Assembly (NCBI GenBank): GCA_028277795.1
Contig: JANQFP010000042.1
Span: 1 to 48,211, forward strand
Reading direction: 5' to 3'
DNA: 48,211 bases
Origin: Rhodospirillales bacterium
Lineage (GTDB): Bacteria > Pseudomonadota > Alphaproteobacteria > Rhodospirillales > JANQFP01
Positions 2,651 to 33,793 of the stretch are shown here, one piece after another (position 1 is the first letter of the stretch; each line of letters starts with the position of its first letter). Under the pieces are notes generated by a model. It had not been told where the DNA came from and made no database searches. It worked only from the letters and a program-made list of their open reading frames with translations. The position numbers were made by a program, and so were the translations under genes.

Positions 2651-2882
2651 CAGCGTCACCTTACCGGAGGGCGGGGCGCTCCTTCGGTGCGGGAATCCGT
2701 TTCTGGTGACGCGTGTTGAGCGTTGCCGTGACGGAGTCCGGACCAGGGCGTCTGCCCCTCCGATTTCCGACTTCACGGCTTGATCGAGCGGGCCCGGCCA
2801 TGCCGGTGCCGCGTGTTGGTGCGTGCCGCTCGCCGCTGGGGGGCGACGGGCGTGCGCCGTGAATGAAGGGAACGAGAGGACA

Positions 2883-3998
2883 ATGACAAACCGCGAAAAC
2901 ACGTCGAGAACGACGCTGTTGGCAACGACGACCATGATCGCCGCAGGCCTGATGGCCACGCCCGCGGTGGCGGCGGAGAAGATCACCCTCGGCCTCAGCG
3001 GCTTCATGGAGCAGTGGGTCGGTGTTGCCGACAACGACGAGGACTTCGAACAGGCCGGCGTTGGCGGGCAGGGGGTGAACTTCACCGGCATCGACCAGCA
3101 GGCCGACACGGAGGTCCATTTCCAGGGCAAGACCGTGCTCGACAACGGCATCGAGATCGCCGTCAACATGGAGCTGGAAAGCGATACCGGCGGTGGCGGC
3201 ATCGACGATTCCTTCGTCGAGGTCACCAGTGGCCTGCTCGGCCTGGTGCAGCTCGGCGGCGCCGAGCACTCCATCTGGCAGGCCCACGTGGCCTCGCCCG
3301 ACGTCGGCATCGGCAACCAGGACGGCGACTACGCGAACTGGGTGATCACGCCGGCCGCCTTCACCGACTCCGCCATCACCGGCTTCAATCCGGACACCGG
3401 CAACTCCAACAAGATCGCCTACTTCTCGCCCATGTTCTTCGGCTTCGGCCTGTTGGCCAGCTACAACCCGGATACCGGGTCGACCGCCACCGGGGTGCAG
3501 ACGGCGCCCAACGAGTCGTGGACCCTGGGTGTCGCCATGGAGCAGGAGTTCGGCGGCGTCGGCATCGTGGCCGACGTGGGCTACGGCACGCTTCTGGAGG
3601 GGGCGGGTGCCAACAACCTGGAGGCCTGGCAGGTCGGCGTCAACGTCTCCTTCGCCGGCCTGACCGTCGGCGGCAGTGCGGTGCTCAACGACGAGCGCCT
3701 GGAGAACGCCGTCAGCGGCACCTTCGCCGACGGCATCGTGTTCGACGTGGGCGTGTCCTACGAGGTCGACGCCTTCGCCGCCAGCGTCACCTGGCTGCGC
3801 TCGGAGCTGGAGGGCAACAGCCTCGTCGATGCCGAGGACGAGAAGGACTCGGTGATGGTGTCGGGGGCCTACAGCATGGGTCCCGGGGTCACCCTCGCGG
3901 GCTCGGTGTTCTGGGTCACCTACGACGACGAGACCACCACCAACGCCAACAACAACGAAGGCTGGGGCGGCGTCGCCGGACTCGTGCTGGAGTTCTAG
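2883..3998 (+). CDS. outer-membrane porin
   Basis: A 371-residue exported beta-barrel protein. The N-terminus has a basic stretch, a hydrophobic core and an Ala-rich cleavage site (TPAVAAEK, residues 18-25). The mature part opens with KITLGLSGFMEQW, typical of the general porin family, has alternating hydrophobic/hydrophilic strands and Gly/Asp/Asn-rich loops, and ends in Phe (GLVLEF), the usual outer-membrane insertion signal. The ATG at 2883 is chosen because GAGAGGA lies just upstream and the signal peptide begins there. It is the only gene directly downstream of the first cobalamin riboswitch, so it is probably repressed when B12 is plentiful. What it transports cannot be read from sequence; uptake of a corrinoid or cobalt complex is inference. 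Confidence 0.82.
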   Translation: MTNRENTSRTTLLATTTMIAAGLMATPAVAAEKITLGLSGFMEQWVGVADNDEDFEQAGVGGQGVNFTGIDQQADTEVHFQGKTVLDNGIEIAVNMELESDTGGGGIDDSFVEVTSGLLGLVQLGGAEHSIWQAHVASPDVGIGNQDGDYANWVITPAAFTDSAITGFNPDTGNSNKIAYFSPMFFGFGLLASYNPDTGSTATGVQTAPNESWTLGVAMEQEFGGVGIVADVGYGTLLEGAGANNLEAWQVGVNVSFAGLTVGGSAVLNDERLENAVSGTFADGIVFDVGVSYEVDAFAASVTWLRSELEGNSLVDAEDEKDSVMVSGAYSMGPGVTLAGSVFWVTYDDETTTNANNNEGWGGVAGLVLEF

Positions 3999-4150: not shown

Positions 4151-4246
4151 CGGACTTCCCCCTGTTTGGTCTGACAACGCATTCCGAATTGGGGCCAACC
4201 GCTCGGGCGGCATTGACGACGATCAAATGATCTTGTTTAGTGACGA

Positions 4247-4440
4247 CCGCTTGGTTGCCAGAGGCCAAAGGCTGAGGCTGTAAATGGGAACCCGGTGCGC
4301 TGTACCCATCAGGGAGCAACGCCGGGGCTGTACCCGCATCTGTATGCGGTAGGGGTGCCGATCGACACCACTGGGGAAACCCGGGAAGGTGGGCACAAAA
4401 CCCGATGACCGCGAGCCAGAATACCTACCAGGCGTTTTGT
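4247..4440 (+). ncRNA. cobalamin riboswitch upstream of metal ABC importer
   Basis: A second, full-length cobalamin riboswitch, diverged from the first. Recognisable blocks are AAATGGGAACCCGGTG near 4281, GCCGGGGCTGTACCCGCA near 4322, CACCACTGGGGAAACCCGGG near 4367, and GATGACCGCGAGCCAGAATA near 4403. The last replaces the usual AGCCAGGAGACC, so the B12 box is slightly altered. It lies about 40 bases before a small membrane-peptide gene and the three-gene metal ABC transporter, which it should repress when B12 is sufficient. Confidence 0.85.
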
Positions 4441-4480
4441 GATCCTGTTCTGGGGCGGGTGTCCCCGAAAGGAGAATGGA

Positions 4481-4618
4481 GTGCCTTCGACCAAGCCGAC
4501 AGACCGGGTCCGGTCTGAATTCAACTTCACGGAACTCAGCACACTAAGCCTTCTCATCGCCGTCGGCGTGACGTGCGCCGTCTTGTGGGCCGTTATCGCA
4601 TCGACTGTCGTCGGCTGA
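4481..4618 (+). CDS. 45-residue single-pass membrane peptide
   Basis: A short frame starting at GTG 4481, six bases after a very good ribosome binding site (AAAGGAG, 4468-4474). The product has a polar, charged N-terminal half and one hydrophobic helix (about residues 21-44, beginning LSTLSLLIAVGV) ending in Val-Val-Gly. It is the first gene after the second cobalamin riboswitch and stops 17 bases before the ABC ATPase, so it belongs to the importer operon. Small one- or two-helix proteins accompany several cobalt transporters (CbtB, CbiN), but this one has no His-rich tail and I do not recognise its family. A role as an accessory subunit is inference. The alternative ATG at 4476 gives an unrelated 22-codon frame with poorer spacing. 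Confidence 0.6.
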   Translation: MPSTKPTDRVRSEFNFTELSTLSLLIAVGVTCAVLWAVIASTVVG

Positions 4619-4635
4619 CGCTAGAGGTCCGCTTC

Positions 4636-5400
4636 ATGGTGCTGTCGGCTCACGGGCTGACCCTTGGCTATCGAGGGCATCCCGTCGTAAGCGATGTTTC
4701 GTTGAAGCTTGCGCCCGGCGATGTGCTTGCTGTTGTCGGCCACAACGGGTCGGGCAAGTCGACCCTCGTCAAAACGCTGCTGGGTACGCTACCGCCGATC
4801 GCGGGCGCCATCGAGTGGCCGACGGGCCGGCCATCAACGATCGCCTATCTCGGTCAACGCACCGAGTTTGACACTCGCTTTCCTGTCCGTCTGCGTGACT
4901 TGGCGGAGATGGGCGCATGGCACGGCCTTGGTTTCACCCGGCGGATTGATCCGGCGGGCCGTGCGCGCATCGAAGCTGCGCTGGAGCGCACGGGAACGGC
5001 GGATATTGCGGATATGCCGGTCCACACTCTATCGGCAGGGCAATTGCAAAGAGCGCTGTTCGCCCGAACCATGGTTCAGGACGCTCCGGTCATTCTGCTC
5101 GATGAACCGTTTACCGCCGTTGACCAGTCGACGGAAGCGGATCTGCTGACGTTGATCGACGATTGGTCGGCCGAAGGGCGGGCGTTGATCCTGGTCCTGC
5201 ACGATCTGTCGGCTGTTCTGCGGCACTGCACATCGGCCTTGCTGCTCGGGCGTGGCACCGCGCTGTTCGGCGTGCCGCACACAACGCTGACCCCGGATAA
5301 TCTTATTGAATTCGGCTATATGTCGGCCAGCCAAGCGGAATGGCAGGAACTGATGTATCGCCGTTCGGGGCCCGAGAGCGCAGGAGGCCCCCGTGTTTGA
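4636..5400 (+). CDS. metal ABC transporter ATP-binding protein
   Basis: ATPase subunit (254 aa) of a metal importer of the ZnuC/MntB/TroB type. Walker A is GHNGSGKST (about residues 37-45), the Q-loop is in AYLGQRTEFD, the signature is LSAGQLQRA, Walker B is VILLDEPFT, and the switch His is in LVLHD. The ATG at 4636 follows AGAGG and starts directly before the first strand (VLSAHGLTLGY); the longer open frame overlaps the small peptide gene. It overlaps the permease gene by eight bases, showing translational coupling. Because a cobalamin riboswitch precedes the operon, cobalt is a more likely substrate than zinc; that is inference from regulation, not from the ATPase itself. Confidence 0.9.
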   Translation: MVLSAHGLTLGYRGHPVVSDVSLKLAPGDVLAVVGHNGSGKSTLVKTLLGTLPPIAGAIEWPTGRPSTIAYLGQRTEFDTRFPVRLRDLAEMGAWHGLGFTRRIDPAGRARIEAALERTGTADIADMPVHTLSAGQLQRALFARTMVQDAPVILLDEPFTAVDQSTEADLLTLIDDWSAEGRALILVLHDLSAVLRHCTSALLLGRGTALFGVPHTTLTPDNLIEFGYMSASQAEWQELMYRRSGPESAGGPRV

Positions 5401-6307
5401 ATGGCTCGAGTACGGGTTCATGATCCGTGCCCTGGCCGCGACCAGCGTGCTCAGTTTCTCGATCGCGCCGGTCGGCGCATTCCTCGTGTTGCGCCGGCTA
5501 TCCCTCGCAGGCGAGGCCATGGCCCATGCCATCGTCCCCGGCATCGTTATCGGCTTCGTCGTCGCCGGGTTGTCGGTGACGTCGATGATTGTCGGCGGGC
5601 TGGGGGCGGGAATCACCGTCGCCGTCCTGACCAGTCTTTTGGCCCGATTCACCATCATCCGGGAAGACGCGAGCCTAGCGTCGCTCTACCTGATCGCGCT
5701 GGCGCTTGGCATTTTCATCCTGTCCGCCTCCGGGTCTGCGGTTCCGCTGAAGAGTTTCCTGTTCGGCTCGATCCTCGGCATCGACGACGAAACGCTGTAT
5801 CTCATCGGCGCGACGGCGACGATCACGCTGGTCAGTTTCGCGTTGATCCTGCGCCCCCTAATCACCAACACCATCGATCCGGTGTTCCACGAGAGCCAGT
5901 CGAAGCGACCGGGTCTGGTCGTCCAATGGTTCATGTTTCTCGTGGTGTTGAACCTGTTGGGAGCCTTCAAGGCCCTGGGCACCCTCATGGCGGTCGGCCT
6001 CATGATCCTGCCCGCCACGGCCGCCCGCTACTGGGTCTCCACGTTGACAGGTTATCTCATTCTCACATTCGTCTTCGCGATTGCCAGTTGCTGGTTGGGG
6101 CTGATCATCTCGTACTACGCCCCGGACGTTCCGTCCGGCCCCGCTATCGTCCTGGTTTCCGGGGGCTTCTTTTTCGCCAGCCTCTTGCTGGCGCCGCAAG
6201 GCTTCGGTTCTTTGAATCGACGGACAACCTCGTCGCGAGGGTCCGTTTCATCCCCGACACCCTTCACGACCCGTCCAAACCCCGCGTTAGAGGAGAAGAC
6301 GCAATGA
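5393..6307 (+). CDS. metal ABC transporter permease
   Basis: Inner-membrane permease (304 aa) of the ABC-3 family (ZnuB/MntC/TroC type) with about eight hydrophobic helices. Recognisable family features are LVLRRLSLAGEAMAHAIVPG near residues 27-46 and the Gly-rich LGTLMAVGLMILPATAARYW near 196-215. It begins inside the end of the ATPase gene and overlaps the binding-protein gene by four bases (ATGA). The C-terminus is polar and extends some 30 residues past the last helix. Substrate cannot be told from this subunit. Confidence 0.9.
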   Translation: MFEWLEYGFMIRALAATSVLSFSIAPVGAFLVLRRLSLAGEAMAHAIVPGIVIGFVVAGLSVTSMIVGGLGAGITVAVLTSLLARFTIIREDASLASLYLIALALGIFILSASGSAVPLKSFLFGSILGIDDETLYLIGATATITLVSFALILRPLITNTIDPVFHESQSKRPGLVVQWFMFLVVLNLLGAFKALGTLMAVGLMILPATAARYWVSTLTGYLILTFVFAIASCWLGLIISYYAPDVPSGPAIVLVSGGFFFASLLLAPQGFGSLNRRTTSSRGSVSSPTPFTTRPNPALEEKTQ

Positions 6308-7182
6308 AGACCCTGTTTAGTGCATTGATCCTGTTGGCCCTGACAATCACGGGGCCAGCCGCTGCCGCCGACCGCATTCAGGTCGTGGCGAGTTTCTCGA
6401 TTCTCGGCGACATGGTGCGTCAGGTCACCGGCGACCTCGCCGACGTCACCACGATCGTCGGCCCGGATGCCGACGCCCACGTCTATCGGCCCAGCACCAG
6501 CGACGCGAAGGCCGTCGCCGGCGCAGACGTCATTTTCGTCAACGGTCTCGGGTTTGAAACGTGGTCCAACACCCTGATCGAAACGTCGGGCGGCGACGCC
6601 GAAGTGTTCGTCGCGACCAAGGGCGTCGAGCCGTTGCGTGTCGACGGCGAAATCGACCCGCATGCCTGGAATGCGCTGACCAACGGCATGATCTATGTCG
6701 AGAATATCGCCGCCGGTATGTCGAAGGTGGACTCGGCAAACGCGGACACCTACCGCGCCAACGCTAACGCCTACATCGAACGGCTCCGTGCAGTGCACGC
6801 CAACGCGGCGAGCAAGTTCTCCGCGTTGCCGGAAGCCCGTCGCACCGTGGTGACGGCGCACGACGCCTTCGGCTATCTGGCCCAGGCCTATGGACTGAAC
6901 TTCCTGGCCCCGGTCGGGATCGATACCGATGCGGAACCGTCGGCCAGCGACCTGGCGAAATTGATCGACCACCTGAAAGAAACCGGCGCCGGCGCGTTGT
7001 TCGTCGAGAACATTACGAGCCCGGCGTTGGTCGAGCAGCTTTCGCGTGAGACCGGTTTGGAAATCGGCGGTCGCTTGTTCTCGGACGCCCTGTCGGAGAA
7101 AGGCGGACCGGCGACCAGCTATATCGCGATGTTCGAACACAATCTCGGCGAGCTGATCAGGGCTCTGCAGCCGGGGAGCTGA
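6304..7182 (+). CDS. metal-binding periplasmic protein of ABC importer
   Basis: Solute-binding protein (292 aa) of the ZnuA/TroA (cluster A-I) family. A Sec signal peptide ends at about residue 22 (AAAAD). The four expected metal ligands are present: His59 in DADAHVYRPS, His120 in EIDPHAW, His186 in TAHDAFGYL and Asp261 in LFSDALS. The His-rich loop that marks many zinc-specific ZnuA proteins is absent, which fits manganese, iron or cobalt better than zinc. The ATG at 6304 overlaps the permease stop. With the riboswitch upstream and nikR/hupE nearby, cobalt uptake is the favoured reading. Base composition across 4.2-7.2 kb appears lower in GC than the neighbours, which may mean transfer. Confidence 0.88.
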   Translation: MKTLFSALILLALTITGPAAAADRIQVVASFSILGDMVRQVTGDLADVTTIVGPDADAHVYRPSTSDAKAVAGADVIFVNGLGFETWSNTLIETSGGDAEVFVATKGVEPLRVDGEIDPHAWNALTNGMIYVENIAAGMSKVDSANADTYRANANAYIERLRAVHANAASKFSALPEARRTVVTAHDAFGYLAQAYGLNFLAPVGIDTDAEPSASDLAKLIDHLKETGAGALFVENITSPALVEQLSRETGLEIGGRLFSDALSEKGGPATSYIAMFEHNLGELIRALQPGS

Positions 7183-22351: not shown

Positions 22352-24754
22352 CTAGGTTCTCAGGACGCCACCGGTGGCCTTGGCCACGGCGTCCACCACC
22401 TTGGCGGCAACCGCCTCGATCTCGGCATCGGTCAGCGTGCGCTCCGTAGGCTGCAGGACCACGTTGACGGCCAACGACTTCTTGCCGGCGCCCAGCGCGC
22501 CGCCGGTGAACACGTCGAACACCCGCACATCGACAACCAGCCCCTTGTCGGCGCCGCGGGCGGCGCGCACCACATCCTGGGCCGGGATCCGGTCGTCCAC
22601 CACGAAGGCGAAGTCGCGCTCCACCGGATGCAGGGGCGACAGCTCCAAGTGGGGTTTGGTGGGGCCGGCCTTGGCCTTGGGCTGCGGCAGGGCGTCGAAG
22701 AACACCTCGAATGCGGTCACCGGTCCCTTGACGTCCATGCGCCGCAGCACCCGCGGGTGGATTTCCCCGAAATGGGCCAGCACGCCGGGACCGAGGCGCA
22801 AAGCGCCCGAGCGCCCGGGATGGAAGTAGTCGGGGGCGTCGGCCGTCACCTGGACCGCGTCGGCGGGCGCGCCGACGGCGGCCAGCACCGCCCCGGCGTC
22901 CGCCTTGGCGTCGAAGGCGTCCACGGCCCGCGGCGGCTGGGCCCAGTTGCGGTGCCCGGTGCGGCCCGAGCGCACGCCCGCCGCCACCATGCCCTGGTCC
23001 TCCGGCCGGTCGCCCGCGAATCCCGGGCCGACCTCGAACAAGGCCGCGTCGGCGATGCCGCGGTCGGCGTTGCGCCCGCAGGCGGCGACCAGGTTGGGCA
23101 GCGGTGAGGGCCGCATGACGTCCAGGTCGGCGCTGATGGGGTTGACCAGTCGCAGGCTCTCGGCGGTGCCGCCGAACAGCTCGGCCCGGGTCGACTCGAC
23201 GAAGGAGTAGGTCACCGCCTCCATCAGGCCGCGCCCGGCCAGCGCCCGCCGCGCCATGGCCCGCCGTCGCTGCCCGGCATCGAGGGCGGGATGGGGCAGG
23301 CCATCGCCGCGCACCATGGAGACGGTGGGGATGCGGTCGTAGCCGTGGATGCGCACCACCTCCTCCACCAGGCATGCCTCGCCGACGATGTCGCCGCGCC
23401 ATGGCGGCACCGCTACGGCGAGGGCGCCGTCTTCGGGCGTCACCACGAAGCCGAGATCGGTGAGGATGCCGGTCACCCGGTCCGCGTCCACGTCCACGCC
23501 GCCGAGGGTCCGCACCCGGTCGGGGCGCAGGCGGACGGACCGTTGCCAGGGCGGCTCGCCGCCGGCGATCACCAGCTCGGACGGCTCGCCGCCACACAGC
23601 TCCAACACCAGCCGGGTGGCGATCTCCATGCCGTCCACCAGGAACGCCGGGTCGATACCGCGCTCGAAGCGGTAGCGGGCGTCGGACTGGAGGTTGAGCT
23701 TGCGCCCGGTGGCGGCGGTGCGCCGGGGATCGAAGTAGGCCGACTCCAGGAACACATTGACCGTCTCACCGGTGCAGCCCGTGGGCTCGCCGCCGATGAC
23801 GCCGCCCAGGGCCTCGGCCCCGGTGTCGTCGGCGATCACCGTCATCTCCGGGTCCAGGTCGTAGGTGCGGCCGTTGAGGGCCGCCAGGCGTTCGCCGGGG
23901 CGGGCCAGGCGCACGTGCAGGCCGCCCTCCACCTTGTCGGCGTCGAACACGTGGAGGGGCCGGCACAGGTCCAGGGTCAGCAGGTTGGTGATGTCGACCA
24001 GGGCCGAGATGGGCCGCAGTCCCACCGCCAACAGCTTGTCCTTGAGCCATTGGGGGCTCTCGCCGTTGCGCACCCCGCGAACCAGACGGCCGACGAAATA
24101 GGGGCACGCGTCGGCCGCCTCGTTGTCGAAAGCGAGCCGCACGCCGATGGGGCTGGCGAAGACGCCGGGCACCGGGGTCGCGTCGAGGGGCTTCAGGCGG
24201 CCCATGCCGGCCGCCGCCAGGTCGCGGGCGATGCCCCGGATGCCCAGGCAGTCGCCCCGGTTGGGCGTGACGTCCACGTCGATCAGCGGGTCGGACAGCC
24301 CCATGACCTCCACCGCCGCGGCGCCGATGGGGGTGTCTTCCGGCAGCTCGACGATGCCTTCGTGGTCGTCGGACAGCCCCATCTCACGCTCCGACAGGAG
24401 CATGCCGTCGCTCTCGACGCCCCGTATCTTCGCTTTTTTGAGGGTCATGTCGGTTCCGGGAATGTACGACCCGGCGCCGGCGAACACGCCCATCATGCCG
24501 GCACGCGCGTTGGGCGCGCCGCACACCACCTCGGTCACGGCGGCCCCCGTGTCGACGCGACAGACTTTCAGCTTGTCGGCGTCGGGATGGGGCCGGGCCT
24601 CCAGCACCCGCGCGACGACGAAGCCTTCCAGGCCGCGCGCCCGATCGGTGACCGAATCCACCTCCAGACCGATCATGCTCAGGCGCTCGACGATGTCGGC
24701 GGCCGTGGCCTCGGTCTCCAGGTGGTCCTTCAACCAACTGAGGGTGAACTTCAC
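22352..24754 (-). CDS. pheT: phenylalanyl-tRNA synthetase beta subunit
   Basis: Beta subunit (800 aa) of the alpha2-beta2 enzyme that charges tRNA-Phe. The N-terminus [14 protein letters not shown], the tRNA-binding EMAP-like domain ([20 protein letters not shown]), the B3/B4 editing domain (INLLT-type segment [21 protein letters not shown]), the B5 domain ([18 protein letters not shown]) and the C-terminal anticodon-binding fold ([14 protein letters not shown]) are in order. The start is GTG at 24754, overlapping the pheS stop (GTGA). It is the last gene of the thrS-infC-rpmI-rplT-pheS-pheT operon; palindromic element B follows directly and may end the transcript. Confidence 0.97.
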
Positions 24755-25842
24755 GGGTCCAGGCCTCCCACCAGGCTGGGCACCTGGAGCGCCGGGAACC
24801 CGTAGTGGCGCAGCCACCGCAGGTCGGATTCGAAGAAGGTCCGCAGGTCGGGGATGCCGTACTTGAGCATGGCGATGCGCTCGATCCCCATGCCGAACGC
24901 GAAACCCTGGTAGCGTTCCGGATCGATGCCGCAGTTCTCCAGCACCTTGGGATTGACCATGCCGCAGCCAAGGATCTCCATCCAGTCGTCGCCATGGCCG
25001 ATGCGGAACTTCCCGCCTTCGCGGGTGCAGCCGATGTCCATCTCGGCCGAAGGCTCGGTGAACGGGAAGTAGCTGGGGCGGAAGCGCACGGGCAGGTCGT
25101 CCACGTCGAAATAGGCGCGGCAGAAGTCGGTGAGACACCCCTTCAGGTGTCCCATGTGGGTGCTCTCGTCCACCACCAGCCCCTCCACCTGGTGGAACAT
25201 GGGCGTATGGGTGGCGTCGTAGTCGCAGCGGTAGGCGCGCCCGGGGACGATGATGCGCAGCGGCGGCGGCGTCCGCTCCATGACGTGGATCTGGACCGGC
25301 GAGGTGTGGGTCCTGAGCACCGGGCGGTCGTCATCGGCATGACCCGACGTCCCGCTCCCGTGCAGGTAGAAGGTGTCGTGCTCCTGGCGGGCCGGGTGGT
25401 CGGGCGGGATGTTGAGCGCCGTGAAGTTGTGCCAGTCGTCCTCGATGTCCGGCCCTTCCGCCACCGTGAACCCCATCTCGCCGAAGATGGCCACGATCTC
25501 GTCGGTGGTCTGGCTGATGGGATGGATGCGGCCCTCGGGCTGCGGCCGGGTGGGCAAGGTGACGTCGATGCGTTCTTCGTCGAGACGGGAGTCCAGATCG
25601 GCGTCGGCCAGGGCGGCGCGGCGGGCCTCGATGGCATTGGCCACCTCGTCCTTGAGCACGTTCAGCGCCCGGCCGGCGGTCTTGCGCTGCTCGGGGGCCA
25701 TGGCCCCCAGCCCCTTCATCAGCTCGGTGATGCGGCCCTTGCGGCCGAGGGCGGCGACGCGGGCCTGCTCCAGGCCGTCCAGGTCGCCGGCCGCGGCGAT
25801 CGCCGCCAACACGTCGGCGCGCAGGGTTTCGACGTCTTCCAT
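24751..25842 (-). CDS. pheS: phenylalanyl-tRNA synthetase alpha subunit
   Basis: Catalytic alpha subunit (363 aa). An N-terminal coiled-coil (about residues 1-85) binds tRNA. Class II motifs follow: motif 1 near [19 protein letters not shown], motif 2 ([20 protein letters not shown], then [11 protein letters not shown]), and motif 3 in [20 protein letters not shown] near the C-terminus. Length and motifs are normal for the long bacterial form. It overlaps pheT by four bases and lies 42 bases after rplT. Confidence 0.97.
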
Positions 25843-25884: not shown

Positions 25885-26250
25885 TTAAGACGTGGCGGCG
25901 AGGGCCGCTTGCGCCTGCTCGACCAATGCCTTGAACGAATCCGGGTCCCTGACCGCCAGGTCCGAAAGGATCTTGCGGTCCACCTCGACCCCGGCCTTGC
26001 CGAGGCCGTTGATAAACTGGGCGTAGGTGAGGCCGTGCTCACGGGCGCCGGCGTTGATGCGCTGGATCCACAGGCGGCGGAACTGGCGCTTCCGCGTGCG
26101 GCGGTCCCGGTAGGCGTACTGCAGCCCTTTCTCGACCCGCTCGACGGCGACCCGGAAGCTGGTCTTGGAGCGGCCGCGGTAGCCGCGGGCCATGCCGAGG
26201 ATCTTCTTGTGGCGGGCGTGGGTGGTGACGCCCCGTTTGACGCGTGCCAT
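25885..26250 (-). CDS. rplT: ribosomal protein L20
   Basis: Large-subunit protein L20 (121 aa), needed early in 50S assembly. It is strongly basic, with the diagnostic N-terminus [18 protein letters not shown], the central [20 protein letters not shown] and the C-terminal ISDLAV-like [13 protein letters not shown]. It is 13 bases after rpmI in the usual infC-rpmI-rplT order. In other bacteria L20 represses this operon by binding the mRNA; whether that occurs here is not visible. Confidence 0.98.
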
Positions 26251-26263
26251 GGCTTCTGCCTCC

Positions 26264-26461
26264 TCAGACGTGGGGCATGTAGGTCTTGACGATGCGGGCG
26301 TCGGCGGCCGACAGCAGCTTGGTGCCCCGCGCCTTGCGCTTCATCTTCTGGGTGCGCTTGCGCAGGTTGTGGCGCTTGTAGCCGAAGTTGGCCCGCATCT
26401 TGCCGGACGCGGTGGGGCGGAAGCGCTTCTTGGCGCTGGCCTTGGTCTTGAGCTTGGGCAT
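26264..26461 (-). CDS. rpmI: ribosomal protein L35
   Basis: Small, highly basic large-subunit protein L35 (65 aa), starting [20 protein letters not shown] and with the typical [14 protein letters not shown] segment. The ATG at 26461 gives the family length; the open frame upstream is not coding. It is separated from infC by 184 bases, longer than usual inside this operon, and that gap holds a strong hairpin. Confidence 0.98.
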
Positions 26462-26596
26462 TTGGCGCTCCTGGTGACGGGGTGCGGCTGAGAGCGGCTG
26501 GGCATGCCCGCGCCGGACCGCTCGGAGAGCCGGGGTTATAGCCGCCCCACCCCGCCAATGCAAGGCGACGCTGGGCCTCCTTCCGGCAAAGACAAC

Positions 26597-26645: not shown

Positions 26646-27182
26646 TCAGCGGGGAGCGATGATCATCACCATCTGGCGCCCTTCCATCTTGGGAAACAGC
26701 TCCACCTTGGACAGCTCGTCCAGCTCCTCGCGCACCCGGTCGAGGACCTTGAGTCCCAGCTCCTGGTGGGCCATCTCGCGGCCGCGGAAGCGGATGGTCA
26801 CCTTGACCTTGTCGCCGCTTTCCAGGAACCGGCGCATGGAGCGCATCTTGACGTCGTAGTCATGGACATCGATGCCCGGGCGCATCTTGATTTCCTTGAC
26901 GTCGATGGTCTTCTGCTTCTTGCGCGCCTCGTTGCGCTTCTTCTGGCTCTCGTACTTGAACTTGCCGTAATCGAGGATCTTGCAGACGGGCGGCTCGGCG
27001 TTGGGCGAGACCTCGACCAAATCCAGGCCGGTCTCGGCAGCCATTTCCATCCCTTGCTCCGTGGGGACGACGCCGATCATCTCGCCGGTGGCGCCGATCA
27101 GGCGGATGGTGGACACGTCGATCGCGTCGTTGACCCGCGGCCCTTCGCGGGCCGGCGGTTGGTTTAGCGGTGGTCTGGCTAT
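26646..27182 (-). CDS. infC: translation initiation factor IF-3, probable ATA start
   Basis: Initiation factor 3 (178 aa with the start proposed here). It binds the 30S subunit and rejects wrong start codons. The conserved C-terminal parts are present ([37 protein letters not shown]). The first standard start is GTG at 27116, but that would cut off conserved N-terminal residues. The reading frame continues upstream through NDAIDV and ARPPLNQPP to ATA at 27180-27182, which sits seven bases after a strong GGAGAGGAGG site. IF-3 genes are known to start at rare codons (AUU in E. coli) so that IF-3 can repress its own translation. ATA is therefore the best-supported start. Confidence 0.9.
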
Positions 27183-27279: not shown

Positions 27280-29226
27280 TCAAGCCCGGGCCAGCGGTCC
27301 GGCGGCCTCTTCAGCCAGTCTAGCGGCTGCCTCTTGGAGCGCAAGGACTTCTTGGGTCTTGCCGCCCAGGCGGCGGATCGCAACGGTGCCGTCGGCGGCC
27401 TCGCGGGCGCCGACCACCAGCATCACCGGAACCTTGGCCAGGCTGTGCTCCCGGACCTTGTAGTTGATCTTCTCGTTGCGCAGGTCCGCTTCCGCCCTCA
27501 GGCCGGCAGCGCGCAGCGCCGCGTGCACCTCGGCGGCATAGGCGTCGGCCTCGTTGGTGATGGTGGCGACCATCGCCTGCACGGGAGCCAGCCACAGGGG
27601 CAGGCGCCCGGCGTGGTGCTCCACCAGGATGCCGATGAACCGCTCCAGGGAGCCGAGGATGGCGCGATGCAGCATCACCGGCCGGTGCTTCTGGCCGTCC
27701 TCGCCCACGTAGGCCGCGTCCAGGCGCTCGGGCAGCACGAAGTCCACCTGCAGCGTGCCGAGCTGCCAGTCGCGGCCGATGGCGTCGCGCAGGACGAACT
27801 CCAGCTTGGGGCCGTAGAACGCCCCCTCGGCCGGGTTGGGCACCGTCTCCAGGCCGGTCTCGGCGGTGGCCGCGGACAGGGCCGCCTCGGCCCGGTCCCA
27901 GGTCTCGTCGTCGCCGGCCCGCACCGGCGGCCGGTCGGCGAACTTGACCGTCACCTTGTCGAAGCCGAAGTCCTTGTAGACGCTGAGCAGGAGGTCGCAG
28001 AAGTCCTTGGTCTCCGACGTGATCTGGTCCTCGGTGCAGAAGATGTGGGCGTCGTCCTGGACGAAGGCGCGCACCCGCATGAGGCCGTGCAGGGCGCCGG
28101 ACGGTTCGTTCCGGTGGCAGGAGCCGAACTCGGCCATGCGCACCGGCAGGTCCCGGTAGCTGGTGATACCCTGGCGGAAGATCTGCACGTGGCAGGGACA
28201 GTTCATGGGCTTGAGCGCCAGCACCTTGCCTTCGGTCTCGGCGGTGAACATGTGCTCGCGGAACTTCTCCCAGTGCCCCGAGGATTCCCACAGGCTGCGG
28301 TCGACCAGTTGCGGCGTGTTGACCTCGACGTAGCCGGCGGCCTCTACCCGTTTGCGGATGTAGTCCTGGACCGTGCGGTACAGCGTCCAGCCCTTGGGGT
28401 GCCAGAACACCGAGCCCGCGGCCACGTCCTGGAAGTGGTATAGCCCCATCTCGCGGCCGAGGCGGCGGTGGTCGCGCCGCTCGGCCTCCTCCAGCATGTG
28501 CAGGTGGTCCTTGAGCTGCTTCTCGGTGGCCCAGGCGGTGCCGTAGATCCGCTGCAGCATCTCGTTCCGCGAGTCCCCCCGCCAGTAGGCGCCGGCCAGC
28601 TTCATCAGCTTGAAGGCGTGGCCCAGGCGGCCCGTGGACGGCAGGTGCGGCCCCCGGCACAAATCGATGAAGCCGCCCTGGCGATAGAGGCTCACCTCCT
28701 CGCCTTCCGGGATGGCGCCGATGATCTCGGCCTTGTAGTGCTCGCCCTGCTCGGAGAAGAAGCGCGCCGCGTCGTTGCGGGCCCACACCTCGCGGGTGAT
28801 GGCTTCGTCGCGGTCGACGATCTCGTGCATGCGCGTCTCGATGCGCTCCAGGTCCTCGGGCGTGAACGGCGTCGGGCGGGCGAAGTCGTAGTAGAACCCG
28901 TTCTCGATGGCCGGGCCGATGGTGACCTGGACCTCGGGATACAGCTCCTTCACCGCCTCGGCCATCACATGGGCGGCGTCGTGGCGGAGCATTTCCAGGC
29001 CGTCGTCCTCCTTGGCCGTCACCACGGCGACCTCGGCGTCCCGGTCGATCACGAACGCCAGGTCCCTCAGCGCGCCGTCGACGCGCACGGCAAGGGCCGC
29101 CTTGGCCAGGCCGGGGCCGATATCGGCGGCCAGATCGGCGCCGGTGACCGGGCCTGCGTAGTCGCGCGCGCTGCCGTCGGGCAGCGTCACCCGCACCGGG
29201 TTCTCGACTTGCGCTTCCTGGGCCAT
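27280..29226 (-). CDS. thrS: threonyl-tRNA synthetase
   Basis: Class II threonyl-tRNA synthetase (648 aa). It has an N-terminal TGS domain ([20 protein letters not shown]), an editing domain with the zinc-like HxxxH motif ([20 protein letters not shown]), the catalytic core with Cys of the zinc site in [10 protein letters not shown], motif 2 ([20 protein letters not shown]), and the C-terminal anticodon-binding domain ([15 protein letters not shown]). The ATG at 29226 gives the full TGS domain. It is the first structural gene of the thrS-infC-rpmI-rplT-pheST operon. A Thr-rich leader peptide and terminator lie upstream (29322-29453), so attenuation by threonyl-tRNA is likely. Confidence 0.97.
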
Positions 29227-29321
29227 GGCCCGTCTCCCGTCAGCTTCCGTGCGGCGCCGGTTGGCCGGCCGCGCACTCTAAATGGGCGCCCGATTCAGTC
29301 AACCAGGGCCCCGCCGCGAAC

Positions 29322-29352
29322 AAAAAATCCCTCCCGGTCGGACCGTGGAGGG
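29322..29352 (-). terminator. intrinsic terminator of the thrS attenuator
   Basis: Read on the minus strand: CCCTCC-A-CGGT-CCG-ACCG-GGAGGG, a ten-pair stem with one bulged A and a three-base loop, followed by ATTTTTTG. It lies 36 bases after the leader-peptide stop and about 95 bases before thrS. Its 5' arm, in context GCCCTCC, is complementary to GGAGGGC in the last codons of the leader peptide, which supplies the alternative antiterminator pairing. Confidence 0.88.
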
Positions 29353-29387
29353 CTGTGGTCGATGCCGCAATGCGCGTGACGCCGCCG

Positions 29388-29453
29388 TCACGGCCCTCCT
29401 CGGACCGCGGTGGTGGTGGTCGCCGTCGTAGTGGTCATGCACCGCATGGCCAT
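29388..29453 (-). CDS. threonine-rich leader peptide for thrS
   Basis: A 21-residue frame from ATG 29453, preceded by a GGAG site six bases away. After Met-Ala-Met-Arg-Cys-Met come four Thr, one Ala, four Thr and one Ala, then Val-Arg-Gly-Gly-Pro and TGA. Eight of 21 codons are threonine, using ACC, ACT and ACG. GTGACG/CGTCAC forms a short hairpin over and after the stop codon. The codons GGA-GGG-C near the end can pair with the 5' arm of the downstream terminator. A ribosome stalled on Thr codons would leave that segment free and allow read-through into thrS; a ribosome reaching the stop would cover it and let the terminator form. No function of the peptide itself is implied. Confidence 0.82.
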   Translation of the reverse strand: MAMRCMTTTTATTTTAVRGGP

Positions 29454-29494
29454 CGTCTCACTCCAAGTACGGCGCGCCCGCGAAGGGCACGCGA

Positions 29495-29530
29495 CCAATC
29501 CTATGTCGGACATCGCCCGTTCGTTGTCAA
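29495..29530 (-). promoter_or_regulatory. candidate promoter of the thrS operon
   Basis: On the minus strand a perfect TTGACA (-35) lies at 29525-29530. A -10 about 17-18 bases on is only loosely consensus (GACATA). Transcription would start around 29495, some 40 bases before the leader peptide. The rest of 29531-29660 holds no supported gene. Confidence 0.5.
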
Positions 29531-29716: not shown

Positions 29717-30964
29717 ATGAAAGTCATTTCTCTAGACGTCACCAATTTCCGCGGTATTCCGAACCTTCGCCTCGATCTCCATGAGCAGGTCAACGTATTG
29801 GTCGGGATCAATGGTTCGGGGAAGTCGGCCATTCTGGACTGTGCAGCGATCATGCTTTCGCGCCTGATCGCACGAATACGATCGACCAAGGGAACGGGGC
29901 GTCAGTTCTCTGACTCAGATATCAGCAATGGCATGTCTGAAACGCGAAACTCGATTGAAGTGTCCTTCCGGGGAGAGACAATCGAGTGGAGCGTTACGAA
30001 GAAGCGTAGAGGGGCGAGAGGGCAAACGATCACGAACCTAGATATGCTTCGGGAATCAGTGGAATTGATGCGTATGGACCTCGAAGTTCAACCGAACACC
30101 GATCTTCCCCTTGCCGTCTATTACCCCGTCAACAGGGCCGTCCTCGACATCCCTCTACGCATCCGGACGAAGCACACTTTCGATCAACTGGCAGCATACG
30201 ACCAGGCCTTGTCGGGAGAATGGAGCAGCTTCCGATTGTTCTTCGAGTGGTTTCGTGAACGTGAAGACTTGGAGAACGAAAAACGCCTAGACGACCCCCG
30301 ATACCGTGACGGGCACCTCGAGGCCGTAAGAAATGCAATCGAACGATTCCTGCCGGGCTTCCGAGGACTCAGGGTCAAACGGTCGCCATTACGTATGGTT
30401 GTCGAAAAGGATGAGAGAGAACTGACGGTCAACCAACTGTCGGACGGCGAAAAGTGCACGCTTGCGATGGTCGGAGACATGGCCCGGCGCATGGCAATTG
30501 CTAATCCAACATTGGCAAATCCCCTTGAAGGGGAAGGTGTCGCGCTAATTGACGAAATCGATTTGCATCTGCACCCCGCTTGGCAACGCAGAATTGTTGG
30601 GGCCTTGAAGGAGACGTTTCCCAATTGCCAGTTCCTGTTGACGACCCACTCCCCTCAGGTGCTTGGGCATCTGAGACCCGAGTGCATATGGGTATTGGAA
30701 AGGGCCGAATCGGGGGTTGTCGCCAACCGCCCCGAGGAGGCTTTCGGCTTGGAGTCGGGCCGAATACTGGAGGACATTATGGGCGTTTCCTCGCGCCCGC
30801 AGGAGGTTAAGAATAAACTACGCGAGCTTTTTCTGGCCATCGATGGGGGAAAGACCAACAAAGCAAAGCGGTTAGCAACGGAAATCCGTCGTCAGGTGGG
30901 TGAAGACCCGGACCTCGTGAAGGCCGACATTTTGATCAGCCGCAGGGAGGTGTTGGGCAAATGA
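29717..30964 (+). CDS. ptuA: PtuA-like AAA/SMC-type ATPase (Septu defence)
   Basis: A 415-residue ABC/SMC-like ATPase of the kind found in the Septu anti-phage system and in retron Ec78 cassettes. Walker A is GINGSGKSA (about residues 30-38), preceded by VTNFRGIPNLRLDL. The signature is NQLSDGEKCTLAMVGDM, Walker B is GVALIDEIDLHLHPAWQ, and the His switch is FLLTTHSPQVL. No coiled-coil arms of SMC length are present. It overlaps the HNH gene by four bases (ATGA), so the two act as a pair. Base composition is clearly lower in GC than the flanking thrS and glycosyltransferase genes, which suggests transfer. Phage defence is inferred from the two-gene architecture. Confidence 0.82.
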   Translation: MKVISLDVTNFRGIPNLRLDLHEQVNVLVGINGSGKSAILDCAAIMLSRLIARIRSTKGTGRQFSDSDISNGMSETRNSIEVSFRGETIEWSVTKKRRGARGQTITNLDMLRESVELMRMDLEVQPNTDLPLAVYYPVNRAVLDIPLRIRTKHTFDQLAAYDQALSGEWSSFRLFFEWFREREDLENEKRLDDPRYRDGHLEAVRNAIERFLPGFRGLRVKRSPLRMVVEKDERELTVNQLSDGEKCTLAMVGDMARRMAIANPTLANPLEGEGVALIDEIDLHLHPAWQRRIVGALKETFPNCQFLLTTHSPQVLGHLRPECIWVLERAESGVVANRPEEAFGLESGRILEDIMGVSSRPQEVKNKLRELFLAIDGGKTNKAKRLATEIRRQVGEDPDLVKADILISRREVLGK

Positions 30965-31569
30965 AACGCATCCAAAAGCTGCCTGAGCCGCAGGGGTTCT
31001 CCGATTGGAAAGCAGACGACAGGATGCGTCACCGGCCAAGCTGGAACCGGCTGCCAGGGAATATTAGACGATTAATACATGTGAGTTTGATGGAGGAACA
31101 AGGAAGAATATGTTGTTATTGTGAGCGGAGGATTTTTATAGAAAATAGCCACATTGAGCACTTTCGTCCGAAATCAAGACGAGAATTTGAATTTCTGCAA
31201 CTTGACTACGACAACTTACACTGCTCGTGCCAAAGAGAAATAAAGCAGGGTGAGCCCCGGCACTGTGCCACATCGAAAGGCAGCTGGTTTGACGAAGGCC
31301 TTATCATCTCGCCGCTTTCGCCTGACTGCGAAGATCGATTCAGGTTCATTGCAAACGGTGACATTTTTCCTCGCGACCCTGCTGATGCCGCCGCGACGGC
31401 GACAATTGGGAGGTTGCGTCTCGATCTGGACAAACTTAGGGCCATGCGCGCCAGCGCGGTGGACAGTTTGAGTGACCTGTCCAAGCCAGAAATCGAAACG
31501 CTTCTTGCGGACAGGACGGGAGGTCAATTCCTCCCATTCTACACGACGATTAAACAAGTCCTGTCGTGA
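30961..31569 (+). CDS. ptuB: PtuB-like HNH endonuclease (Septu defence)
   Basis: A 202-residue HNH nuclease of the family paired with PtuA. The zinc/HNH core is EQGRICCYCERRIFIENSHI followed by EHFRPKSRREFEF and LDYDNLHCSCQ, with the His of IEHFRPK and the Asn of YDNLHCSC as likely active-site residues. DEGLIISPLSPDCEDRFRF and the Asp/Pro-rich segment that follows also recur in this family. The start codon is inside the end of ptuA. Like ptuA it is relatively AT-rich. No reverse transcriptase or retron RNA is adjacent, so the cassette looks like Septu rather than a retron. Confidence 0.82.
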   Translation: MKRIQKLPEPQGFSDWKADDRMRHRPSWNRLPGNIRRLIHVSLMEEQGRICCYCERRIFIENSHIEHFRPKSRREFEFLQLDYDNLHCSCQREIKQGEPRHCATSKGSWFDEGLIISPLSPDCEDRFRFIANGDIFPRDPADAAATATIGRLRLDLDKLRAMRASAVDSLSDLSKPEIETLLADRTGGQFLPFYTTIKQVLS

Positions 31570-31619: not shown

Positions 31620-32552
31620 TCAAGCTAACGCGGGGAGGGCCGCCAGCACATCCTCGACACCGATTTCCGTGAGCGACGGGCGGCGCAGGATGGTGACGGC
31701 GGGCCCGCGTTGGGCGCACAGGGCCGGGTCGGAGGCATGGGAATAGAGGACGACGCAGGGGCAGCCGGCGACGGCGATCAGGTGCATGGATCCGGTGTCA
31801 TTGCCGACGGCGCCGGTCGCGCGCCGAGCCAGACCGACGATGTCGGCGAGCCCGGTCTCGCCCGCAAGGTCCCGCGCCTCCGGGCATCGGGCCACCACGG
31901 ACTCGGTCAGCGGCCGCTCGTCGGCGGTCCCCAGCAGCACCGGTGTCACGCCCCGCCCGACCAAGTTGCTGGCCAGGGCGCCATAATGCTCGATCGGCCA
32001 CCGCTTGCCCGGCCGATGGGCGGCGCCGCCCGGCACCAGCAGAACATAAGGGTCGGGCAATCCGAAGCGTGCCGTGTCGGCCCGCAGCCATGACAGGTCG
32101 GGCTTCGGCACCTCGGTAATGCCGGCCATGCGCAACTGCTCGGCCTGGCGCTCGATGGTATGCATGGCGTCGCGCCCCGGGTTGGCGTGGGGGTGCGAGC
32201 AACCCTTCGCGATGCCCGACCACTCGGGCCACGGTCCGGGCCAGAACAGACGGAAGTAGAAGTTGCTGCGGTCCGACGTCTGGAGGTCGTAGACCCGCCG
32301 GAAGCCACCGCCGCGCAGGCGTCGGCGCAGGGCCTGCCAGTCGCCGAGGCGGGTCAGCGGCGGGCGGTGGTCGATCCAGAGGTCGTCCACGTATCCGCTG
32401 GCGGTGGCGAGGTTGGCGTAGGGCCCCGTGGTCATCAGGGTGATGTGGGCGTCGGCGTGATGGCGCCGGATGGCGGCCATGGGGCCCAGGGCCTGGACGA
32501 AATCCCCGAGCGCCCCCAGCTTGACGACCAGGATGCGGGCGCTCCCGGTCAC
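31620..32552 (-). CDS. glycosyltransferase family 9 (heptosyltransferase-like)
   Basis: A 310-residue GT9 enzyme related to ADP-heptose:LPS heptosyltransferases. The N-terminus ARILVVKLGALGDFVQALGP is the family's acceptor-domain signature, and the C-terminal half has PYVLLVPGGAAHRPGKRWP and VGNDTGSMHLIAVAGCPCVV, the nucleotide-sugar pocket. The GTG at 32552 overlaps the stop of the upstream glycosyltransferase and starts right before the first strand; the longer open frame runs into that gene. The pair probably adds sugars to lipopolysaccharide or another surface glycan. Donor and acceptor are not readable from sequence. Confidence 0.88.
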   Translation of the reverse strand: MTGSARILVVKLGALGDFVQALGPMAAIRRHHADAHITLMTTGPYANLATASGYVDDLWIDHRPPLTRLGDWQALRRRLRGGGFRRVYDLQTSDRSNFYFRLFWPGPWPEWSGIAKGCSHPHANPGRDAMHTIERQAEQLRMAGITEVPKPDLSWLRADTARFGLPDPYVLLVPGGAAHRPGKRWPIEHYGALASNLVGRGVTPVLLGTADERPLTESVVARCPEARDLAGETGLADIVGLARRATGAVGNDTGSMHLIAVAGCPCVVLYSHASDPALCAQRGPAVTILRRPSLTEIGVEDVLAALPALA

Positions 32553-33793
32553 CGATCGGGGAACGCCCGGGTCGGGCCCAGGACCTCCTCGTAGACGTCC
32601 AGCGTCTTGGCGCACATGGTCTCCTTCGAGAACCGGGCGCGGACGTTGGCCATGGCCCGCTCGGCCAGGTGCCGGCGGGTGTCCGCGTCCACCGCCAGGG
32701 CCCGGTCGATGGCGGCGGCGAGGGCGTCCGCATCACCGGGCGGCACCAGCCAGCCGGTCTCGCCGGGGATCACCGTCTCGCGGGCGCCCCCGTGGTCGGT
32801 GGCGATGACCGGCCGCCCCAGCGCCTGGGCCTCGACGATGACGCGGCCGAAGGCCTCCGGGTCGGTGGAGGCGGAGACCACCACGTCGCTCAGCATGTAG
32901 GCGGCCGGCATGTCGGGACAGTGGTCGGCGAAGCGTACGATGCCGCCCAGGCCGTGGCGCTCCACCAGGCGCTCCAGCTCGTTGCGGTACTCGCCCCGTC
33001 CCTGGTCGGAGCCGACCAGCAGGAAGCGGACGTCGCGCCGGCCCAGCCGGGCGGCGGCCTCCAGGAACACGGTCTGCCCCTTCCACCGGGTCAGGCGTCC
33101 CGGCAGCATGACCACCGGCACGCCGTCGGGCAGGCGCCACTGGCCGGCCAGGGTCACCACCCGGTCGGGCCGCACCTGGGCGGGGTCGAAGAGGCCCAGG
33201 TCGACGCCCCGATGGATGACGCGCAGACGCTGCGCCGGCACCCCGTAGACCTGCCGCGCGTGGGTGGCGATGAAGGTCGAGATGGCGATCACCCGCTCGC
33301 CGCGGGTCATGATGGCGTTGTACCAGCGTTTGAGCCGGGTGCGGTCGCCGTAGGTGCCGTGGAATGTGGTGACGAAGTGGCGGCCGGTGCGGCGGGCCGC
33401 GGCGTAGGCGCTCCAGGCCGGCGCCCGGGAGCGGGCGTGGACGATGTCCACCCCCTCCGCGGCGATGATGGCCGCCAGGCGGTCGACGTTGAAATGCATG
33501 ACCCACGGGTTCTTGCTGTCCAGCGGCAGGGTCAGGTGCTCGGCCCCGACCCGGGTCAGCGAATGGACCAGGGGTCCTCCGGCGGAGGCCACGATGGCGC
33601 GTCCCCCGGCGTCGGTGATGGCGCCGGCGATCTCGACGGTGCCCCGCTCGACGCCCCCCTCGGCGCCCAGTGCAGGCAGCACCTGGAAGATGGTGGGCCG
33701 GCGCCCGCCGGCCGTCGCGCTGCCCCGTTTTTCCGTGGTGGCGTCCCGTTCCGCCGCCGGCGCGGCGGTGTTATGGTGCGCGGTACCGCTCAT
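32549..33793 (-). CDS. glycosyltransferase family 4
   Basis: A 414-residue GT-B glycosyltransferase. The N-terminal domain has FQVLPALGAEGGVERGTVEI and VDIVHARSRAPAWSAY; the C-terminal donor domain has VVMLPGRLTRWKGQTVFLEA and the conserved EAFGRVIVEAQALGRPVIAT, where the Glu residues hold the sugar nucleotide. The first ~35 residues are low complexity and look nonconserved. The ATG at 33793 is the only standard start that keeps the first strand, but it lies only 15 bases from the divergent hydrolase start, so the promoters must overlap the genes. It is coupled to the GT9 gene. Confidence 0.88.
   Translation of the reverse strand: MSGTAHHNTAAPAAERDATTEKRGSATAGGRRPTIFQVLPALGAEGGVERGTVEIAGAITDAGGRAIVASAGGPLVHSLTRVGAEHLTLPLDSKNPWVMHFNVDRLAAIIAAEGVDIVHARSRAPAWSAYAAARRTGRHFVTTFHGTYGDRTRLKRWYNAIMTRGERVIAISTFIATHARQVYGVPAQRLRVIHRGVDLGLFDPAQVRPDRVVTLAGQWRLPDGVPVVMLPGRLTRWKGQTVFLEAAARLGRRDVRFLLVGSDQGRGEYRNELERLVERHGLGGIVRFADHCPDMPAAYMLSDVVVSASTDPEAFGRVIVEAQALGRPVIATDHGGARETVIPGETGWLVPPGDADALAAAIDRALAVDADTRRHLAERAMANVRARFSKETMCAKTLDVYEEVLGPTRAFPDR

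Follow-up and report, generated by a model that had tools for sequence, protein, structure and literature searches.

The thrS locus of this Rhodospirillales bacterium raises the question of how the supply of threonyl-tRNA synthetase (ThrRS) is adjusted to the charging of tRNA-Thr. Two controls of thrS are known, translational autorepression in E. coli and T-boxes in Firmicutes, and attenuation by leader peptides has long been known for the thr, his, leu and trp operons and for E. coli pheST. The original prediction, made from the window (the whole stretch of 48,211 nt that was analysed), held that charged tRNA-Thr controls thrS here by ribosome-stalling attenuation. This reading is now supported by comparison, through 21 homologous elements. 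In the window, about 95-225 nt separate the structured element from the thrS start. The gene, the promoter and the short leader ORF are as follows:

27280..29226, minus strand: thrS, threonyl-tRNA synthetase, the proposed regulated gene (TIGR00418, 681 bits)
29525..29530, minus strand: TTGACA, the -35 box of P1 (the promoter of the attenuator), read from the sequence
29502..29507, minus strand: -10 box GACATA of P1, with the spacing of GATATA/GATATT in relatives
29461..29464, minus strand: Shine-Dalgarno GGAG of the leader ORF, 7 nt 5' of the ATG at 29453
29388..29453, minus strand: leader ORF MAMRCMTTTTATTTTAVRGGP, 21 codons, 8 of them Thr, read from the sequence

These parts agree with what had been described before: a perfect TTGACA (29530-29525), a ribosome binding site (29464-29461, 7 nt ahead of the ATG) and a 21-codon frame with eight Thr codons that matches the minus-strand sequence, from the ATG at 29453 to the TGA at 29390-29388. 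The two boxes of P1 are separated by exactly 17 nt on the minus strand, and transcription is predicted to start at about 29495. P1 is predicted to be an active promoter, and the Thr-rich leader would be translated by a ribosome. Within the window, no second short ORF reaches six Thr in 10 codons. Sixty random windows, drawn from a first-order Markov model with the dinucleotide make-up of the window, gave 0.03 such ORFs per window and no short ORF with eight or more Thr in 10 codons.

From the last leader codons towards thrS lie segments that can form alternative hairpins:

29389..29412, minus strand: protector hairpin (1:2) in which the 3' part of the leader ORF folds on itself, CGCGGUCC pairing with GGGCCGUG, predicted by folding
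29393..29399, minus strand: antiterminator 5' arm GGAGGGC in the last leader codons, read from the sequence and conserved in homologues as (G/A)GGGGGC
29347..29353, minus strand: GCCCTCC, the shared strand, antiterminator 3' arm and terminator 5' arm, read from the sequence
29329..29352, minus strand: terminator hairpin CCCTCCACGGTCCGACCGGGAGGG, read from the sequence, stem -17.2 kcal/mol
29322..29327, minus strand: T6 tail of the terminator, read from the sequence

The terminator stem CCCTCC/GGAGGG pairs 29352-29347 with 29334-29329 and extends further inwards; an A and the T6 come after it. The intrinsic terminator with six T that had been proposed is therefore present, its stem closing at 29329 and its T6 ending at 29322. 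Pairing of GGAGGGC (29399-29393) with GCCCTCC (29353-29347) creates the mutually exclusive structures that had also been claimed. The last Thr codons can form a third, protecting hairpin, which the original prediction had overlooked; in the window its energy is -15.0 kcal/mol versus -9.2 +- 2.5 in shuffles. Both this hairpin and the outer antiterminator (7 pairs) are clear in the window. A generic terminator scan of the window did not flag the attenuator hairpin.

The arrangement suggests how the switch might work. RNA polymerase would start at P1 and a ribosome would translate the Thr-rich leader. When charged tRNA-Thr is plentiful, the ribosome would reach the stop codon and cover GGAGGGC, leaving GCCCUCC free for the terminator, and transcription would stop at about 29322. 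When charged tRNA-Thr is scarce, the ribosome would stall in the Thr run, GGAGGGC would pair with GCCCUCC, and this antiterminator would exclude the terminator and allow thrS to be transcribed. If the leader were untranslated, the 1:2 hairpin would sequester GGAGGGC and termination would be favoured again. The outcome would be that more ThrRS is made when charged tRNA-Thr runs short. The front edge of a ribosome is taken here as about 14 nt ahead. GGAGGGC occupies nucleotides 55-61 of the window leader ORF; with Thr codons 7-14 in the A site, the front edge falls short of it, whereas a ribosome that has reached the stop codon covers it, so that the geometry in the window is that which attenuation requires. 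Very probably, then, the element attenuates thrS transcription by means of a translating ribosome, with charged tRNA-Thr as the signal. Stalling, termination, read-through and a response to shortage of threonine or ThrRS are what its sequence leads one to expect.

Single-sequence statistics alone appear insufficient to settle whether an attenuator is present; the comparative evidence does so. A Thr-rich short ORF and a terminator might have come to lie side by side by chance, given that the Thr codons ACC and ACG are cheap in a GC-rich genome and that the folding energy of the whole leader is ordinary (z -0.9 in single-sequence folding). To be set against this are the same layout and near-constant distances in 21 genomes of six families, always before thrS, and with 20 homologues in hand a chance arrangement is rejected as scarcely conceivable.

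The first of these homologues came from a scan for Thr-rich short ORFs upstream of thrS, which took in about 110 genomes belonging to the order together with 80 named contigs. In 11 relatives such an ORF is followed by a CCCTCC...GGAGGG TTTTTT hairpin upstream of thrS. A covariance model (R1), built from these 11 together with the window element, was used to search 317 genomes from the order, 385 from the class and 398 from the phylum. It placed the element in 17 of the 317 genomes of the order, the window included (families f1, f10, f19, f23 and f27), and found four further elements in one genus of family f95, elsewhere in the class; no other credible element was found in the class or phylum genomes. 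The total is 21 elements (20 genomes and the window) in six families, every one directly upstream of thrS. The genome-wide null for the element is given by covariance model matches and not by a count of ORFs. More than 100 R1 matches above an E of about 1e-6, mostly short and terminator-sized, were treated as noise. A full-length match at the phylum level (L233, 6e-7) was rejected as an Asp-rich repeat, and four other phylum-level matches near 1e-6 are each about 54 nt long. A second model (R2), built from the 20 other elements with the window left out, scores the window element at 71.3 bits (E = 6e-15), the next-best match in the same genome having an E of 0.007, and recovers the same 17 genomes within the order. 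In the comparison set, the window genome is the sole representative of its genus and family.

The 21 elements have a common anatomy, and its parts, their fixed spacing, in-frame selection for Thr, exclusive pairings and homology over six families are seen in the sequences and their comparison. All 21 combine a Thr-rich ORF, a terminator before the gene, an exclusive antiterminator and, as the gene that follows, thrS, whose product does the charging. All have a promoter with TTGAC(A/T), a spacing of exactly 17 nt and a GATAT(A/T)-like -10 box (20 found by pattern, G091 by eye). The leaders are 17-27 codons long and contain 5-11 Thr. In the leader frame, 167 of 417 codons are Thr, but each of the other two frames has only 10 or 6 among 396, which points to selection for translated Thr codons. 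The last Thr codon stands 4-6 codons ahead of the stop in 20 of 21 leaders (9 in the divergent G143), and because of this the antiterminator arm would stay exposed when a ribosome stalls and be masked when one reaches the stop. The leaders end in GGGCCGTGA or a close variant (..GGP stop), the stop in G380 being TAG. From the stop codon to the shared CCCTCC strand is 32-38 nt in all 21, and the T tails consist of 5-7 T. The divergent member (G143; L212, 1500-1563, gene strand), which is counted among the 21, has a Thr-rich leader without an in-frame ATG, GTG or TTG. An ATT beside AGGAG could act as its start codon; ATT is the start codon of E. coli infC.

Pairing is conserved as well. In the 20 homologues, 96.7% of cells in the terminator (3:4) stem are paired, and a permutation test shows better pairing with own than with swapped partners (P 0.002, relatedness uncorrected). 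The outer antiterminator (2:3) stem joins (G/A)GGGGGC to GCCCUCC, in many cases extended by GUG(A)/(U)CAC, and is so nearly invariant that it contributes no covariation. The inner stem, after the stop codon, is GUCC/GGAC in some elements and GUUC/GAAC, GGAA/UUCC or GGUUGG/CCAACC elsewhere. Own partners in this stem give -8.48 kcal/mol versus -6.04 for swapped ones (0 of 20,000 permutations, relatedness uncorrected). Taken as a whole, the antiterminator scores 0.230 for covariation versus 0.173 when shuffled (0 of 500) and 0.09-0.15 when slid, kinship again being uncorrected. The covariation that the original prediction had proposed to look for is thus found in the inner antiterminator stem across the homologues. 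The window's own inner stem is unlike that of its relatives, and its own partner is no better than several others (rank 0.31). An equivalent of the protector hairpin is predicted in most homologues, the last Thr codons (CACGACC) pairing in most members with GGGCCGUG at the leader end; own versus swapped partners in the homologue set give P 0.12, which is not significant. In G380, with its UAG stop, the Thr region contains a CUAC that could be matched to GUAG, although this is not the minimum-energy fold there.

The conserved end of the leader could also be read as a binding site. ThrRS itself might bind the RNA, much as in E. coli thrS, with the CGU of GGCCGUGA mimicking the anticodon of tRNA-Thr and the Thr frame being incidental or secondary. 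This CGU is kept in all 21 elements, even with the UAG stop, and E. coli ThrRS contacts its own mRNA through anticodon-like loops. The frame test (167 versus 10 and 6), however, shows selection on translated Thr codons, and CCGUG would be accounted for by its pairing with the CACGACC of the Thr codons; the protector pairing would explain the conservation of CCGUGA. Moreover, about 95 nt separate the terminator from the start codon of thrS, and the T tail at the end of the switch points to an action on transcription. Direct binding by ThrRS is accordingly very improbable.

Attenuation by a translating ribosome, our preferred reading, need not begin in the same way in every member. In 16 of 21 elements (G091 judged by eye) only 7-9 nt separate the -10 box from the start codon of the leader, so that the RNA should start at this codon or beside it, and the leader peptide in these 16 is probably translated from a leaderless RNA, a property of most homologous leader ORFs that the original prediction had passed over. 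In the window and three others (G009, G034 and G065) the ATG follows the -10 box at a distance of 32-58 nt. With 48 nt, on predicted start sites, the window leader is not leaderless in the manner of trpL. The Sinorhizobium trpL attenuator (rnTrpL, peTrpL), another alphaproteobacterial system with its leader ORF at the RNA 5' end (PMC7298713), is a precedent for a leaderless attenuator leader (PMC7298713, PMC10117765). It differs in serving Trp and trpE and in being leaderless, whereas about 42 nt of RNA, with a Shine-Dalgarno, would precede the ATG in the window. The parallel raises the thought that, beyond attenuation, the released short RNA or the Thr-rich peptide acts in trans, as rnTrpL and peTrpL do. 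In most homologues the RNA would indeed be a small leaderless mRNA beginning at the leader start codon, like rnTrpL (PMC7298713, PMC10117765), but the only conserved residues are Thr and the GP end, and GP would be explained by base pairing. A function in trans seems improbable.

A different question is how much the attenuator matters in the window genome itself. The features concerned, and the genes that follow thrS, are:

29275..29302, minus strand: P2 (TTGACT-16-TAGAGT), a candidate second promoter past the terminator and ahead of thrS (consensus scan, weak evidence)
26646-27116, minus strand: infC (NCBIfam equivalog)
in 26264-26563, minus strand: rpmI (NCBIfam equivalog)
25885-26250, minus strand: rplT (NCBIfam equivalog)
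24751-25842, minus strand: pheS (NCBIfam equivalog)
within 22352-25138, minus strand: pheT (NCBIfam equivalog)

If most thrS expression came from P2 (29302-29275), the attenuator would be a true one but of minor importance here. P2 scores 9/12 against the consensus, and shuffles of that region give about 0.1 such sites. In position and spacing it resembles the thrS promoter of relatives without the attenuator (TTGACA-16-TACATT, at a similar distance from thrS). A consensus match is nevertheless no proof of function, and P2 was not seen in any other attenuated genome inspected. We regard a dominant P2 as rather unlikely. If active, P2 could give a basal supply of ThrRS that bypasses the terminator and weakens control in the window genome.

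Downstream, thrS, infC, rpmI, rplT, pheS and pheT follow each other in one orientation. The 163 nt that separate thrS from infC contain only a weak terminator-like site, and no promoter match was found in them. Co-transcription of infC-rpmI-rplT-pheST with thrS is plausible on this gene order. That tRNA-Thr charging sets the whole thrS-infC-rpmI-rplT-pheST transcript through the one attenuator, as the original prediction had it, is a tentative proposal that we find possible but doubtful; if true, IF3, L35, L20 and PheRS would respond to threonine supply.

The original prediction had staked itself on related genomes keeping the Thr run and the competing pairing. In each of the 21 carriers the Thr run is retained, as are the competing pairing and the terminator; most relatives do not have the element at all. 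It is absent from 300 of the 317 genomes of the order, including those with the closest ThrRS homologues, and an attenuator is therefore dispensable for thrS. A quick tree was made from the N-terminal 440 aa of 120 ThrRS sequences. On it, presence of the attenuator has to change 9 times, at least 6 of them forced by well-supported branches, and the window ThrRS is grouped with 14 attenuator-free ThrRS at a support of 97. As the elements are clearly homologous yet scattered on this tree, many losses or transfer of a cassette must be assumed. One ThrRS, encoded behind the attenuator of G499 (L227), has a very long branch and occupies only half of the alignment columns; it is doubtful and may reflect a wrong frame or a sequence fault.

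The surroundings of the element have features of their own. A Septu-type defence pair, PtuA (ATPase) and PtuB (HNH), lies at 29717-31569 on the plus strand (PADLOC E 3e-157 and 1e-58), between a heptosyltransferase gene (31620-32615, minus strand) and thrS. The heptosyltransferase gene stands directly ahead of the attenuator promoter in 17 of 20 attenuator-bearing relatives, and for this reason the PtuA/PtuB pair looks inserted in the window. Farther away, two cobalamin riboswitches 1.6 kb apart (2446-2663 and 4235-4446, plus strand; Rfam RF00174, 102 and 93 bits) precede, respectively, a porin-like ORF (2823-3998) and an ABC transporter that resembles zinc/manganese importers by eye:

4573-5400: ATPase of the ABC transporter, assigned by eye
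5393-6307: permease, assigned by eye
within 5401-7182: binding protein, assigned by eye

How the element compares with known systems remains to be stated. The attenuators of E. coli thrABC, hisG, leuA and trpE resemble it in having a leader ORF rich in regulatory codons, 1:2, 2:3 and 3:4 pairings and a U-tailed intrinsic terminator, but they serve biosynthetic operons; here the gene is that of an aminoacyl-tRNA synthetase, and the element has no Rfam leader match. E. coli pheST, with its pheM leader peptide, is likewise a synthetase operon attenuated through codons for its own amino acid, although there the pair is Phe and pheST and here it is Thr and thrS, with a leader that possibly heads a transcript including pheST. 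The translational operator of E. coli thrS concerns the same gene and the same need for ThrRS. In that system ThrRS binds the mRNA and represses its own translation, in contrast to the Thr-codon leader ORF and transcription terminator found here. The T-box of Firmicutes thrS also senses tRNA-Thr charging via terminator and antiterminator, but it binds uncharged tRNA directly, whereas the sensor here would be a translating ribosome. Searched against Rfam with E values as high as 1 allowed, the element matched neither a T-box nor any other family of leaders, and on that basis a T-box or other known RNA family was rejected. A large terminator survey mentions ThrRS only for E. coli autoregulation (PMC2965389), and a literature search, which did not cover two dedicated surveys of attenuation in Proteobacteria, found no report of a Thr leader for thrS. 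Provisionally, the thrS element is a conserved addition to the leader-peptide attenuators, its mechanism known and its thrS target new.

Leader-peptide attenuation would then be a third solution to the control of thrS, used in a set of Alphaproteobacteria, and would show how an essential gene can swap one mode of control for another and still answer to the same signal. The scatter of a homologous element makes it possible to trace how a regulatory cassette is gained, lost or transferred, and the copies, most of which look leaderless, may be good objects for testing attenuation by ribosomes that start at the RNA 5' end.
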